64,000 nucleotides of DNA from Spirochaetaceae bacterium (lineage in GTDB: Bacteria; Spirochaetota; Spirochaetia; Treponematales; Treponemataceae): NCBI GenBank assembly GCA_017614995.1, contig JAGAAX010000052.1:62001-126000 (forward strand), given 5' to 3'. Both the position numbers and the translations under genes were made by a program. Shown piece after piece: positions 23,501 to 27,034 of this stretch. The stretch's first letter is position 1, and each line of letters opens with the position of its first letter. Under the pieces are notes generated by a model. The model was not told where the DNA came from. It saw nothing but the letters and a program-made list of their open reading frames with translations, and did not search any database.

Positions 23501-23581
23501 TCAGTGAGTTGACTCACTGTTTTTTAGTGGGAGAAACTCACTGGTTTATTGAGTGCACAAAGCTGATAATACAATTACAAA
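23501..23581 (+). repeat. 81-bp upstream repeat with complementary arms, copy 1
   Basis: CAGTGAGT (23502-23509) and ACTCACTG (23512-23519) form a hairpin followed by six T, like a short terminator. A second ACTCACTG at 23536-23543 can compete for the same CAGTGAGT arm or pair with the AGTG at 23526. The block ends in a conserved GCTGATAATACAATTACAAA that could hold a -10 box (GATAAT at 23565). A near copy is at 24284-24364. Confidence 0.8.
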
Positions 23582-23606
23582 AAAGACTTGGCAGAAAACG
23601 ATTGAT

Positions 23607-24269
23607 ATGAAAAAGATGCTGGAAGTTTTAGTTTTATTTTCCATTTTATTGGTTCTTGTAAGTTGCAGCGGCGTTGGCGGCGGCAGTTCTCGTGGTTTAT
23701 TAGTTCCAACTGGCGCGCCTACCGTTGTTGCAAATGATACCCTTGCGGCGTTTGCTGCAAGTTTAGGTGTCAACCTGCTAATGGACTTTAACACAAAAAA
23801 TAATACCGTGGTATATAAAGCCTATATTAATGATAATTTTGTTGTTGATACAAATTATTATGACTTTGTGCTCGACGGCAATTTTGAAAACGGCACGCTT
23901 AGCTTTAACGGAGAAGACAGCATTGCAATAAAAGACGGAACCTTCAATTTTGAAGCAGGTGACGGTGTGCATACATTTAGAAAAACAGCTCAATCATGTG
24001 ATACGGTGCAGTTTACTTGTCCAGTTTCTGAAAAAATCATATTGGATTTTAAAAACACCTTTGTTTATAAACTGAATGGAAGAGGTGTCTTATCAGGAAT
24101 AACAGGTTCTGGTACACATTTAATTACAGACGGAAATTTTAATAGCGGCACAATTATGATAGACGGAAAAAACTATACCATAGCAAATGGAAGCTTCAAT
24201 ATTAATAAAGTCGTTAAAGATGCCTATGGTACTCGCCGTAATTTGCCTCTGACTTTTGTTAAGCAATAG
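23607..24269 (+). CDS. Lipoprotein with a duplicated beta-strand repeat (copy 1)
   Basis: Starting at the ATG at 23607 the protein has a lipoprotein signal, VLFSILLVLVSC, with the lipid-modified cysteine at about position 20 followed by a glycine-serine linker. The mature part contains two related units, DGNFENGTLSFNGEDSIAIK and TDGNFNSGTIMIDGKNYTIA, each followed by a G.FN strand, so it is internally repetitive and beta rich. Ends in LTFVKQ, exactly as the next gene. No clear ribosome-binding site precedes the ATG. Probably displayed at the envelope; function unknown. Confidence 0.75.
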   Translation: MKKMLEVLVLFSILLVLVSCSGVGGGSSRGLLVPTGAPTVVANDTLAAFAASLGVNLLMDFNTKNNTVVYKAYINDNFVVDTNYYDFVLDGNFENGTLSFNGEDSIAIKDGTFNFEAGDGVHTFRKTAQSCDTVQFTCPVSEKIILDFKNTFVYKLNGRGVLSGITGSGTHLITDGNFNSGTIMIDGKNYTIANGSFNINKVVKDAYGTRRNLPLTFVKQ

Positions 24270-24283
24270 TGAAAAACCAAATT

Positions 24284-24364
24284 TCAGTGAGTTTACTCAC
24301 CTGTTTTTAGTGGGAGAAACTCACTGGTTTATTAAGCGCACAAAGCTGATAATACAATTACAAA
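24284..24364 (+). repeat. 81-bp upstream repeat with complementary arms, copy 2
   Basis: Aligned with copy 1 it differs at only a handful of positions, mostly in the first hairpin (GTTTACTCACCTG for GTTGACTCACTGT). The AGTGGGAGAAACTCACTGG and CAAAGCTGATAATACAATTA sections are conserved. Confidence 0.8.
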
Positions 24365-24426
24365 GCCATTATAAAGAAAGCTGAATGTTTTCAGAAAAAC
24401 TTATGGTAAAAAAAGGAGTGTTTGGT

Positions 24427-25083
24427 ATGAAAAAGGTTCTTGGAATTTTTGTTTTAGTTTCAACTGCATTGGTTCTTTTCAGTTGTAAGGGGAATGGCGG
24501 CGGAAACTCTGGCAGCTCTGGCAGTGGAAGTACTGGTGGCACTACAGCGCCTGCAACTGTTGCTACGTTTGCCGCAAATTTTAATATTAATTATGCAATT
24601 GAAGTTAACACAAATACCAATACTGCGGCATTTAGGGCAACTCTGAGTGGAATTGATCTTCTCAATGAAAATTCTCCATGTTCATTTAGCGGTACTTTTG
24701 ATAATGGTACGCTTAGTTTTACAGGTGGAAATACTATTACAATAACAAACGGCTCATTCAATTTGAATACTGGTGATGGTAACCATACATTTACAAAAAC
24801 ATCTTCAACAGCTAATACTGCAACGTATAGTTGTACTATTCCTGGAAGTTACGTACTTGCTTTTAAAAATAACAATACTTATACAATGACCGGAACAGGA
24901 TATCTTACAGGAAACTCTGACTCAGGTGTTTATTCAATTACATCTGGTGATTTTGATAATGGAACAATTGTAATAGATGGAGATAGCTGTACAATTACAA
25001 ATGGAAGGTTTAGTTATACTGAAGAGGTTGAAGATGCTAATGGTACTACCCGTAATTTAACAGTAACTTTCGTTAAGCAATAG
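24427..25083 (+). CDS. Lipoprotein with a duplicated beta-strand repeat (copy 2)
   Basis: Paralogue of the preceding lipoprotein: signal VLVSTALVLFSC with cysteine at about 20, a Gly/Ser/Thr linker, then two units SGTFDNGTLSFTGGNTITIT and SGDFDNGTIVIDGDSCTIT, each followed by NG.F. It ends in LTVTFVKQ. AAGGAG lies eight bases before the chosen ATG at 24427. Codon use is more AT rich than in the surrounding housekeeping genes (many AAT, ACA, TAT), which could reflect surface-protein composition or transfer. Confidence 0.78.
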   Translation: MKKVLGIFVLVSTALVLFSCKGNGGGNSGSSGSGSTGGTTAPATVATFAANFNINYAIEVNTNTNTAAFRATLSGIDLLNENSPCSFSGTFDNGTLSFTGGNTITITNGSFNLNTGDGNHTFTKTSSTANTATYSCTIPGSYVLAFKNNNTYTMTGTGYLTGNSDSGVYSITSGDFDNGTIVIDGDSCTITNGRFSYTEEVEDANGTTRNLTVTFVKQ

Positions 25084-25177: not shown

Positions 25178-25795
25178 ATGGAATCAACAACAAAGAAATA
25201 TCTTACAATCAGTCTTGTGGTAATTGTGGCGGGGGTGCTTGATTTTGCTACGGCGTCGTTTTTTCAGAATGTGCTTCATGTGCCGCTGTTTCTGGATATG
25301 ATTTTTGCAATGGCGGTGCTTTTTGTCTACGGGCCGCTGGTTGCATTGGCTGTTTATGTTGTGAATGTAGTCTGCGCCTGCCTTAAGCTGATTATTCTGT
25401 ATGGCAAGAATGATTACATCTATCTTTTTACGCTATCTGCATTTACCATTATTCTGGTAACATGGTTTTTTGTGCGCAAAAAGGAAAATCTTACAAAAGG
25501 CGTAAATTTCACGTTTTTGTATATTCTTACGGCAGCAGTTTGTGCGGCTCTGGCGTGCGCGGTAGTTAGCGGAATAATCAGCTATTTTACATTCACGCTG
25601 AATGTAGAAGCCGGTCCTTTTGACAAAATCATATTTGCTTTTTCCGGCGACCAGATGAGCGTGCTTGCTTCATGCATTATCGGGCGCATTCCAATTACGG
25701 TTTTAGACAGATGTATTACAACTTTTGCAGGTTTTGGTATTTCTATTGCATATAAAAATATACTAAACAGCCGTATAGGGGGGGGCAGAGGCTGA
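25178..25795 (+). CDS. Polytopic membrane protein resembling an ECF transporter S component
   Basis: A 205-residue protein with about five or six hydrophobic segments. The layout (LFLDMIFAMAVLFVYGPLVALAV, a charged RKKEN loop, then GRIPITVLDRCITTFAGFGI) is like vitamin-binding S components of energy-coupling-factor transporters, where the last segment is conserved. No ECF ATPase or T component is nearby. Instead it abuts, without a gap, a kinase/LuxR fusion, so it may work as the sensory or ligand-binding partner of that protein. Assignment to the S-component family is tentative. Confidence 0.6.
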   Translation: MESTTKKYLTISLVVIVAGVLDFATASFFQNVLHVPLFLDMIFAMAVLFVYGPLVALAVYVVNVVCACLKLIILYGKNDYIYLFTLSAFTIILVTWFFVRKKENLTKGVNFTFLYILTAAVCAALACAVVSGIISYFTFTLNVEAGPFDKIIFAFSGDQMSVLASCIIGRIPITVLDRCITTFAGFGISIAYKNILNSRIGGGRG

Positions 25796-27034
25796 ATGAA
25801 AATCCGGCATATATTGTTGGTAATTCTGCTTTTCTCCCTTGTTTCGTGCTTTCAAAAGCCGCAGCACAAATTTAACGACTCTAAAGTTGTGTATGCGGCT
25901 TGGGCAGAGTTTCATCAGAACAAAGACGCTGCAAGCTGCCAAAAGTTTCTGACTGCTTTAGAAAACTATAAGCCCGAAAATTTCAATTCTTACCCGGAAT
26001 TAAAAAATGCAACCAAAAATCAGATTGAAAACTGCCTGACAACTGGCGCTTCTCTTTTGCAGCAGCTTGAAAATGGTGAAGTTGTCGAGCAGAATTTGAT
26101 TGAGTCACAGATTGAGCAGATAGACCTTAGTATGCTGGCATATCTGCGCAACCAGAACTTTGTGCTGGAAGATACACATAAAAAATTCTATGATTATTAT
26201 CTGATAGCGTTTATAGCCATTATTGCCGGCGCAGTTATACTGATTTATCTAAATGCGCGCGAGATAAAAAAACGCGACAAGATAATCTATAATTCCGAAC
26301 AATTTTTAAAACATTCGATGGAAGTGCAGGAAGCTGAACGGCGGCGCATTTCAATGGAACTTCACGATACTGTCGCGCAAAGTATGCGTTATGTGTCGTT
26401 ATTAGCTGAGAGCCTTGCTGAAAAAGAGACTGCTTCAAAAATCATCAAAACCCAAAACGAGAACATCGACAGTATCCGTAAGTTGTGCTACAACCTTACA
26501 CCGCCCAATTTTTCGGCAGAGAATGTTGCTGGCGCGCTGGAGCTTATGGGGCAAAAGATTTTTGACACAGACAAAAATGACAAAAACGGTTTTCAGTTGC
26601 GCATTGTTGTTGAGGATGCGGTTGATTTTTCGGTATATACGGACGAGCAGCTCATGAACATATACCGCATTGTTCAGGAAGCATTCCAGAATATCAAAAA
26701 GCATGCCTGTGCAAGCGAGGTGACGGTGTTGTTCAAAAAAGACTTGCAGGCGCAGGGCGCTCTTAAAATTATCATAACCGATGACGGCAAAGGCATGAGC
26801 ACTGAAATTGTAGACCAGATAAACACAGGGCTGATTAAATATAACAAGTTTACAGACGCTCTTACCCGCCGCGAAAAAGACGTAATGGAGCTGCTTTTGC
26901 GCCGCTGTACTAACGACCAGATAGCAAATGAGCTGGGTATCAAAAAACGCGCCGTAGAAAACTACATTTCTGTTATTTACGAAAAAACCGGCGTAAATGA
27001 CAGAGCGGAACTTATAACAAAGTACGGTCTGTAG
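25796..27034 (+). CDS. Membrane-anchored HisKA_3 kinase-like protein fused to a LuxR DNA-binding domain
   Basis: The N-terminus has a lipobox-like LLFSLVSC (Cys18), a helical extracytoplasmic part, and a membrane span near 130-150 (YYLIAFIAIIAGAVILIYL). A NarX-type dimerisation/phosphoacceptor helix follows with ERRRISMELHDTVAQS (His190), then an ATPase domain with N box IYRIVQEAFQNIKKH and G1 box ITDDGKGMS near 330. The G2 box and last strands are absent: about 25 residues later a LuxR/NarL helix-turn-helix begins (LTRREKDVMELLLRRC, KKRAVENYISVIYEKTG, residues 356-412). There is no receiver domain. It looks like a one-protein membrane-to-DNA switch formed by fusing a kinase and a response regulator. 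The stop of the upstream gene touches its start. Confidence 0.82.
   Translation: MKIRHILLVILLFSLVSCFQKPQHKFNDSKVVYAAWAEFHQNKDAASCQKFLTALENYKPENFNSYPELKNATKNQIENCLTTGASLLQQLENGEVVEQNLIESQIEQIDLSMLAYLRNQNFVLEDTHKKFYDYYLIAFIAIIAGAVILIYLNAREIKKRDKIIYNSEQFLKHSMEVQEAERRRISMELHDTVAQSMRYVSLLAESLAEKETASKIIKTQNENIDSIRKLCYNLTPPNFSAENVAGALELMGQKIFDTDKNDKNGFQLRIVVEDAVDFSVYTDEQLMNIYRIVQEAFQNIKKHACASEVTVLFKKDLQAQGALKIIITDDGKGMSTEIVDQINTGLIKYNKFTDALTRREKDVMELLLRRCTNDQIANELGIKKRAVENYISVIYEKTGVNDRAELITKYGL

Follow-up and report, generated by a model that had tools for sequence, protein, structure and literature searches.

The locus described here is best explained as a conserved three-gene signalling operon that has been broken, in this lineage only, by a single frame-keeping deletion of 557 bp which fused its kinase to its response regulator, a reading to which we assign a probability of roughly three in four. 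It lies in a 64,000-nt stretch of spirochaete DNA (the window, within which all coordinates below are positions), where a stand-alone membrane protein, hereafter the S protein, is encoded upstream of the fusion gene. The features of the gene pair are as follows.

25178–25795, + strand: S-component-fold membrane protein, 205 aa, intact; proposed receptor (AlphaFold2, Foldseek, VIA-align)
25778–25785, + strand: poly-G tract (8 G) at the 3′ end of the S gene, 10 nt upstream of the kinase start
25796–27034, + strand: fusion gene, 412 aa; kinase residues 1–343 and the last 69 residues of a response regulator
25796–25849, + strand: signal peptide with lipobox LVSC (Cys18), from sequence reading
26189–26254, + strand: transmembrane span, about residues 132–153, from sequence reading
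26336–26506, + strand: HisKA_3 dimerisation/phosphoacceptor domain with His190 (Pfam PF07730, E 3.4e-8, residues 181–237)
26657–26824, + strand: HATPase_c remnant, N and G1 boxes retained, G2 box and C-terminal strands gone (Pfam, residues 288–344)
26824–26825, + strand: deletion junction, between kinase codon AAC and regulator codon ACA
26858–27019, + strand: complete LuxR/NarL (GerE) DNA-binding domain (Pfam PF00196, E 7.4e-13, residues 355–408)

The two genes abut exactly, the ATG of the fusion gene following directly upon the TGA stop of the S gene. Within the fusion protein the phosphoacceptor His190 sits in a recognisable H box (ELHDTVAQ), and both an N box (YRIVQEAFQNIKKHA) and a G1 box (DDGKG, residues 329–333) are present, with 21 residues between the latter and the GerE domain. 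The HATPase_c domain is incomplete: the Pfam match covers profile positions 5–59 of 111, as against 5–107 in an intact relative, the G2 box is absent, and no Response_reg match that would indicate a receiver was obtained with Pfam. The initial annotation had read this same anatomy from the sequence (H, N and G1 boxes and a complete LuxR helix-turn-helix, with neither G2 box nor receiver), and the Pfam matches and open reading frames agree with it; the lipobox and membrane span that it proposed were likewise found on reading the sequence. The lipobox cysteine is conserved in most relatives with a long N-terminus in the kinase alignment, and the span falls inside a long predicted helix (residues 99–166) in the AlphaFold model. 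With a membrane span and a GerE domain in one chain, the protein has the structural make-up of a transmembrane transcription regulator. Scans for consensus promoters and terminators returned nothing above shuffled sequences that would define the start of the operon. Two tandem paralogous putative lipoproteins are encoded upstream (23553–25083); as candidate targets of the regulator they were set aside, tight linkage being unsupported and nucleotide similarity to the corresponding loci of G003 and G004 starting only at 25194.

The ancestral state is provided by three genomes of the window's genus (G001, G003 and G004), which carry relatives at the same locus and emerged from a search of 59 related genomes. 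All three match the full length of the fusion protein, but in two pieces, residues 1–349 falling in a 392-codon ORF and residues 338–412 in the next ORF downstream. The order of genes in these congeners is the same membrane protein, a kinase of 392 aa, 11 bp, and a regulator of 206 aa, the kinases containing HisKA_3 and a full HATPase_c domain and the regulators a receiver (Response_reg) and GerE (Pfam). At the DNA level the window and congener loci are 87–90% identical on both sides of one gap (BLASTN; 83% downstream in G004), and a multiple alignment of the four loci displays the gap directly. Shared kinase sequence ends at codon AAC (residue 343) and shared regulator sequence resumes at codon ACA; the window locus lacks 557 bp that each of the three congeners has between these points. 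Since the kinase and regulator genes are in different frames, a loss of this size (3n+2) preserves both. It removed the last 44 residues of the kinase, including the G2 box and the last ATPase strands (the G2 region is retained in relatives as HFGxRNIVERVQLLGG), together with residues 1–137 of the regulator, which comprise the receiver. Synteny and the single gap in the DNA alignment thus substantiate the origin suggested by the initial annotation, a deletion between adjacent kinase and regulator genes.

We considered whether the gap might instead have been introduced during assembly, 557 bp having been dropped while the metagenome-assembled contig was built. The genome is indeed a multi-contig assembly (64 contigs). 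However, homology at the breakpoints amounts to 1 exact base, or 5 of 6 with one mismatch (TAAACA/TAAAAA), which is too short for a k-mer collapse; moreover, both frames are kept at the join, and the flanks are colinear with the three relatives and lie inside a 190-kb contig. An assembly error at the junction is unlikely on these grounds, and as an account of the locus we regard it as very improbable. A search of the window's own genome, run with positive controls, did not find the lost segment elsewhere, and the same query finds it in G001, G003 and G004.

The fusion is, as far as the sequences compared attest, a private mutation of the window lineage. Among the matches listed from 274 family genomes, only that of the window's own genome spans the junction, the others lying in separate ORFs and covering one side only, kinase or HTH. 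A scan of genome contigs returned these three congeners again, along with L064, a Treponema relative at 62% identity; in all four the kinase and the regulator are encoded apart, and the scan found no second genome of the window's species. Relatives carry the full ATPase and receiver which this copy has lost, the very finding that the initial annotation had named as one that would count against its reading. The window's genome also encodes an intact paralogous S-fold/kinase/receiver-LuxR module (L105, G000:C29:161797-163849), on the same contig and some 74 kb downstream of the fusion locus, which includes the closest receiver in that genome (34% identical); cross-talk or compensation between this module and the broken locus is possible.

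A pair of genes never seen together elsewhere would, according to the initial annotation, likewise have counted against its reading. This was not what was found: in a survey of 63 loci with an S-protein homologue, the S protein, a full kinase and a receiver-LuxR regulator are adjacent at 57, and the order S-kinase-regulator is found at 51 of the 63, with genes mostly overlapping or abutting. The six loci outside the 57 are three contig ends and three disrupted kinase frames (L075, L089 and L097), the latter suggesting from sequence that the module is lost repeatedly, now and then. In one of these (L089, G282:C1:456300-461900) the S gene is shortened as well, and a search for a regulator there found none. 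The S-protein family is present in 123 of the 274 family genomes, with weaker matches elsewhere in the phylum. A 603-aa protein from another family in the order (L010, 1234-3042) has kinase, receiver and LuxR domain in a single chain; this fusion is independent, retains HATPase_c, Response_reg and GerE, and has a divergent S-like gene beside it.

Many of the partner kinases are only 262–297 aa long, and the aligned ones have a short hydrophobic segment at the N-terminus and, beyond that, just the kinase core. Because so little besides the core is present in these kinases, and given the genetic linkage, the strongest candidate for the sensor of the system is the S protein. S protein and kinase are encoded separately, both in the window and at the other loci examined, rather than as parts of one chain as in the 5TMR kinases.

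A model of the S protein was built with AlphaFold2 from 56 homologues (mean pLDDT 83.8, pTM 0.79) and compared with known structures. RibU and ThiT occupy the first eight places in a Foldseek search of the PDB, with a probability of 1.00 for the best five, and VIA-align superposes the model on two RibU structures with Z 14.8 over 162 residues (rmsd 3.0). Unrelated helical proteins score lower (Z 10–11 and below, VIA-align), among them subunits of methane/ammonia monooxygenases (Z 10–11), which were rejected as relatives since S components rank higher. The predicted structure thus confirms a six-helix ECF S-component fold for the window protein, and the S-component likeness noticed for this abutting gene by the initial annotation holds at the level of fold. 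The window S protein has no match to a Pfam or NCBIfam family, and its 56 homologues gave only scattered weak matches to Pfam, one of them to ECF_trnsprt at E 0.0015.

Such a fold raises the alternative that the S protein is a true transport S component which uses an EcfT module elsewhere, its adjacency to the kinase being incidental or serving nutrient-dependent regulation. In addition to the fold itself, this would accord with an EcfT-type gene in the same genome, on contig C54 and not near the S-protein locus. However, the AXXXA motif in helix 1, which S components use for docking to EcfT (PMC11109136), is absent from the window protein and from 50 of the 56 homologues, and present in the other six. 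The linkage to kinase and regulator genes is tight across the surveyed loci, and the short partner kinases leave little space for a built-in sensor. We therefore regard a role in transport as improbable and return to the S protein as receptor.

The ancestral system is most likely a three-component sensor in which the stand-alone S-fold receptor drives the kinase. In the intact system, a small molecule would bind to the S-fold protein and alter the dimeric kinase, which would phosphorylate the receiver and so allow the regulator to bind DNA. The G2 box and last ATPase strands of GHKL kinases, and the receiver of NarL regulators, are required for phosphorelay. In the window these are missing, so the phosphorelay would be dead, the ATPase remnant presumably being unable to bind and hydrolyse ATP productively. 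If made, the fusion protein would be a membrane-anchored dimer with two HTH domains flexibly tethered behind the kinase stump. In the AlphaFold model the junction region (residues 333–350) has pLDDT below 50, and is thus predicted to be disordered; the HTH is confident, and on superposition its fold matches the DNA-binding domains of NarL, LiaR and VraR. The protein might bind DNA regardless of signal, interfere at the ancestral sites or have no effect; at best, the product would be a signal-blind, membrane-tethered DNA binder, and in this lineage the S protein, though intact, probably no longer has an output.

Relaxed selection is not visible in the fusion gene. Against relatives, dN/dS is 0.12–0.16 in the kinase remnant and 0.11–0.16 in the HTH, and among the relatives themselves the values are 0.13–0.14 and 0.10–0.12, respectively. 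Because the fusion does not differ from intact relatives in this respect, the comparison fits either a recent deletion or a product still under constraint, and so does the frame kept across the junction. The catalytic residues that are invariant across 25 kinases are all still present in the remnant, which fits a function lost only recently, and the simplest reading is that the deletion is recent. Synonymous divergence from the relatives is uneven along the kinase gene, at about 1.1 in the HisKA_3 region vs 0.22–0.33 in the N-terminal part (window 26276-26824), a pattern which suggests recombination within the gene.

The initial annotation had favoured an evolved one-component switch, in which ligand binding to the S-fold protein shifts the geometry of the kinase-stump dimer and thereby DNA binding by the LuxR domain with no transfer of phosphate. 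Receptor, signal helices, dimerisation domain and HTH are all intact and in frame, selection is not relaxed, the N and G1 boxes are retained, and membrane-bound regulators derived from two-component systems do exist: about 8% of transmembrane transcription regulators have two-component domains and these appear recent in evolution (PMC10269533). On the other hand, the fusion is known from one genome only among the matches listed from the 274, the conserved relatives all employ a receiver and a full ATPase, the low-confidence junction shows no defined packing, and the retained catalytic motifs would be unnecessary for such a switch. A functional switch of this type has an outside chance of being correct, and we think it rather doubtful that a single deletion created a working, phosphate-free device in which the receptor controls DNA binding via a dimeric, ATP-independent stump. 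With the other copies mostly complete two-component systems, the evolved switch is not supported, and a private, disabling deletion remains our preferred reading.

Because a fused kinase/regulator gene is known in Neisseria gonorrhoeae, some function of the window product is nonetheless possible. In the gonococcal gene, rsp, the PilS/PilR-like genes nps and npa are fused (PMC6528607, PMC10269533); like the window gene, it naturally joins the membrane part of a kinase to the DNA-binding part of the regulator next door. Among the points against a working switch is the record of Rsp, which according to one paper appears to have no role in pilE transcription (PMC6528607) and according to another represses pilA (PMC10269533). 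It also differs from the window fusion in that the kinase and regulator families are unrelated and the loss of the system is species-wide, whereas here one genome is known. Hybrid two-component systems of Bacteroides, and the 603-aa protein at L010, similarly place kinase and DNA-binding domain in one chain, but such hybrids keep a full ATPase and receiver (HATPase_c, Response_reg and GerE in L010) and the window protein has neither. The fusion of a kinase with a regulator is thus an event of a known kind, and the window provides a new instance.

For the receptor, the closest parallels are with the 5TMR kinases, whose membrane domains share a fold with S components (Partipilo and Slotboom 2024, PMC11109136). 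As in BtsS and YpdA, a six-helix S-fold membrane domain serves as the proposed kinase receptor and AXXXA is absent (PMC11109136). Unlike in BtsS and YpdA, the window receptor has a gene of its own, next to that of a single-span HisKA_3 kinase, has no Pfam 5TMR match, and lacks the NXR motif expected between helices 1 and 2 of 5TMR kinases (PMC11109136); residues 30–42 of the window S protein read QNVLHVPLFLDMI, and the family consensus in this region is LHxPLFFDTIF. In operon logic the module resembles LiaFSR and UhpC-UhpB-UhpA, in which a membrane protein, a HisKA_3 kinase and a LuxR-type regulator are likewise combined and the kinase depends on the accessory membrane protein. UhpC is a transporter-like sensor of sugar phosphate. 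LiaF is an inhibitor (PMC3543457). Unlike either, the window membrane protein has an S-component fold. A literature search for stand-alone S-fold receptors found only PMC11109136, and a description of a receptor operon of this type was not found among the papers searched.

The boundary between receptor and kinase genes carries a further feature of the operon. The 8-G tract listed above is the only G or C run of at least 7 in the window, and runs of at least 8 number 18 in the whole 3.05-Mb genome when overlapping matches are merged. Of 34 distinct close loci, 21 have a tract of 7–10 G at this boundary, as against 0 of 35 distant ones, duplicates having been merged by hand (loci with the tract include the window, L002, L003, L004, L066, L068-L071, L073, L074, L076-L079 and L084-L087). 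The lengths in four genus members are 8, 7, 10 and 9. At L048, L049 and L050 (G149, G153 and G151), the S genes are identical in DNA over 540 nt, yet the tracts have 9, 8 and 9 G; as these genomes are classed as different species, the identity suggests that the module was transferred recently or that the species are very closely related. At L048 and L049, the reading frame of the S gene would continue into that of the kinase if the tract had 7 or 10 G. In the genus members and at most other loci where the start can be placed, two of the three frames stop the S gene near the kinase start, and in the third the stop lies about 71–146 nt past that start, so that changes in tract length shift the stop codon between these positions. 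In T. pallidum, poly-G tracts of 7–11 G vary within isolates and affect transcription (PMC7864442). It is a plausible hypothesis, to be read with the caveat of homopolymer errors in draft genomes, that tract length makes the coupling of receptor and kinase phase-variable. Related loci that lack the poly-G tract (L055/L083, L058 and L059) have a poly-C run in the N-terminal region of the kinase gene, possibly another contingency tract of the same operon; in L058 the run is 15 C long and leads into AC repeats.

The window locus gives the exact breakpoints of a one-step change from a kinase-regulator pair to a single membrane-tethered DNA-binding protein. The conserved receptor system is of greater interest than this private fusion, for the comparison exposes a recurrent treponeme module in which a kinase appears to take its signal from a separately encoded, stand-alone sensor protein with the S-component fold of vitamin transporters. 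This module would represent a split form of the link between transporters and receptors that was proposed in 2024 for fused S-fold kinases.
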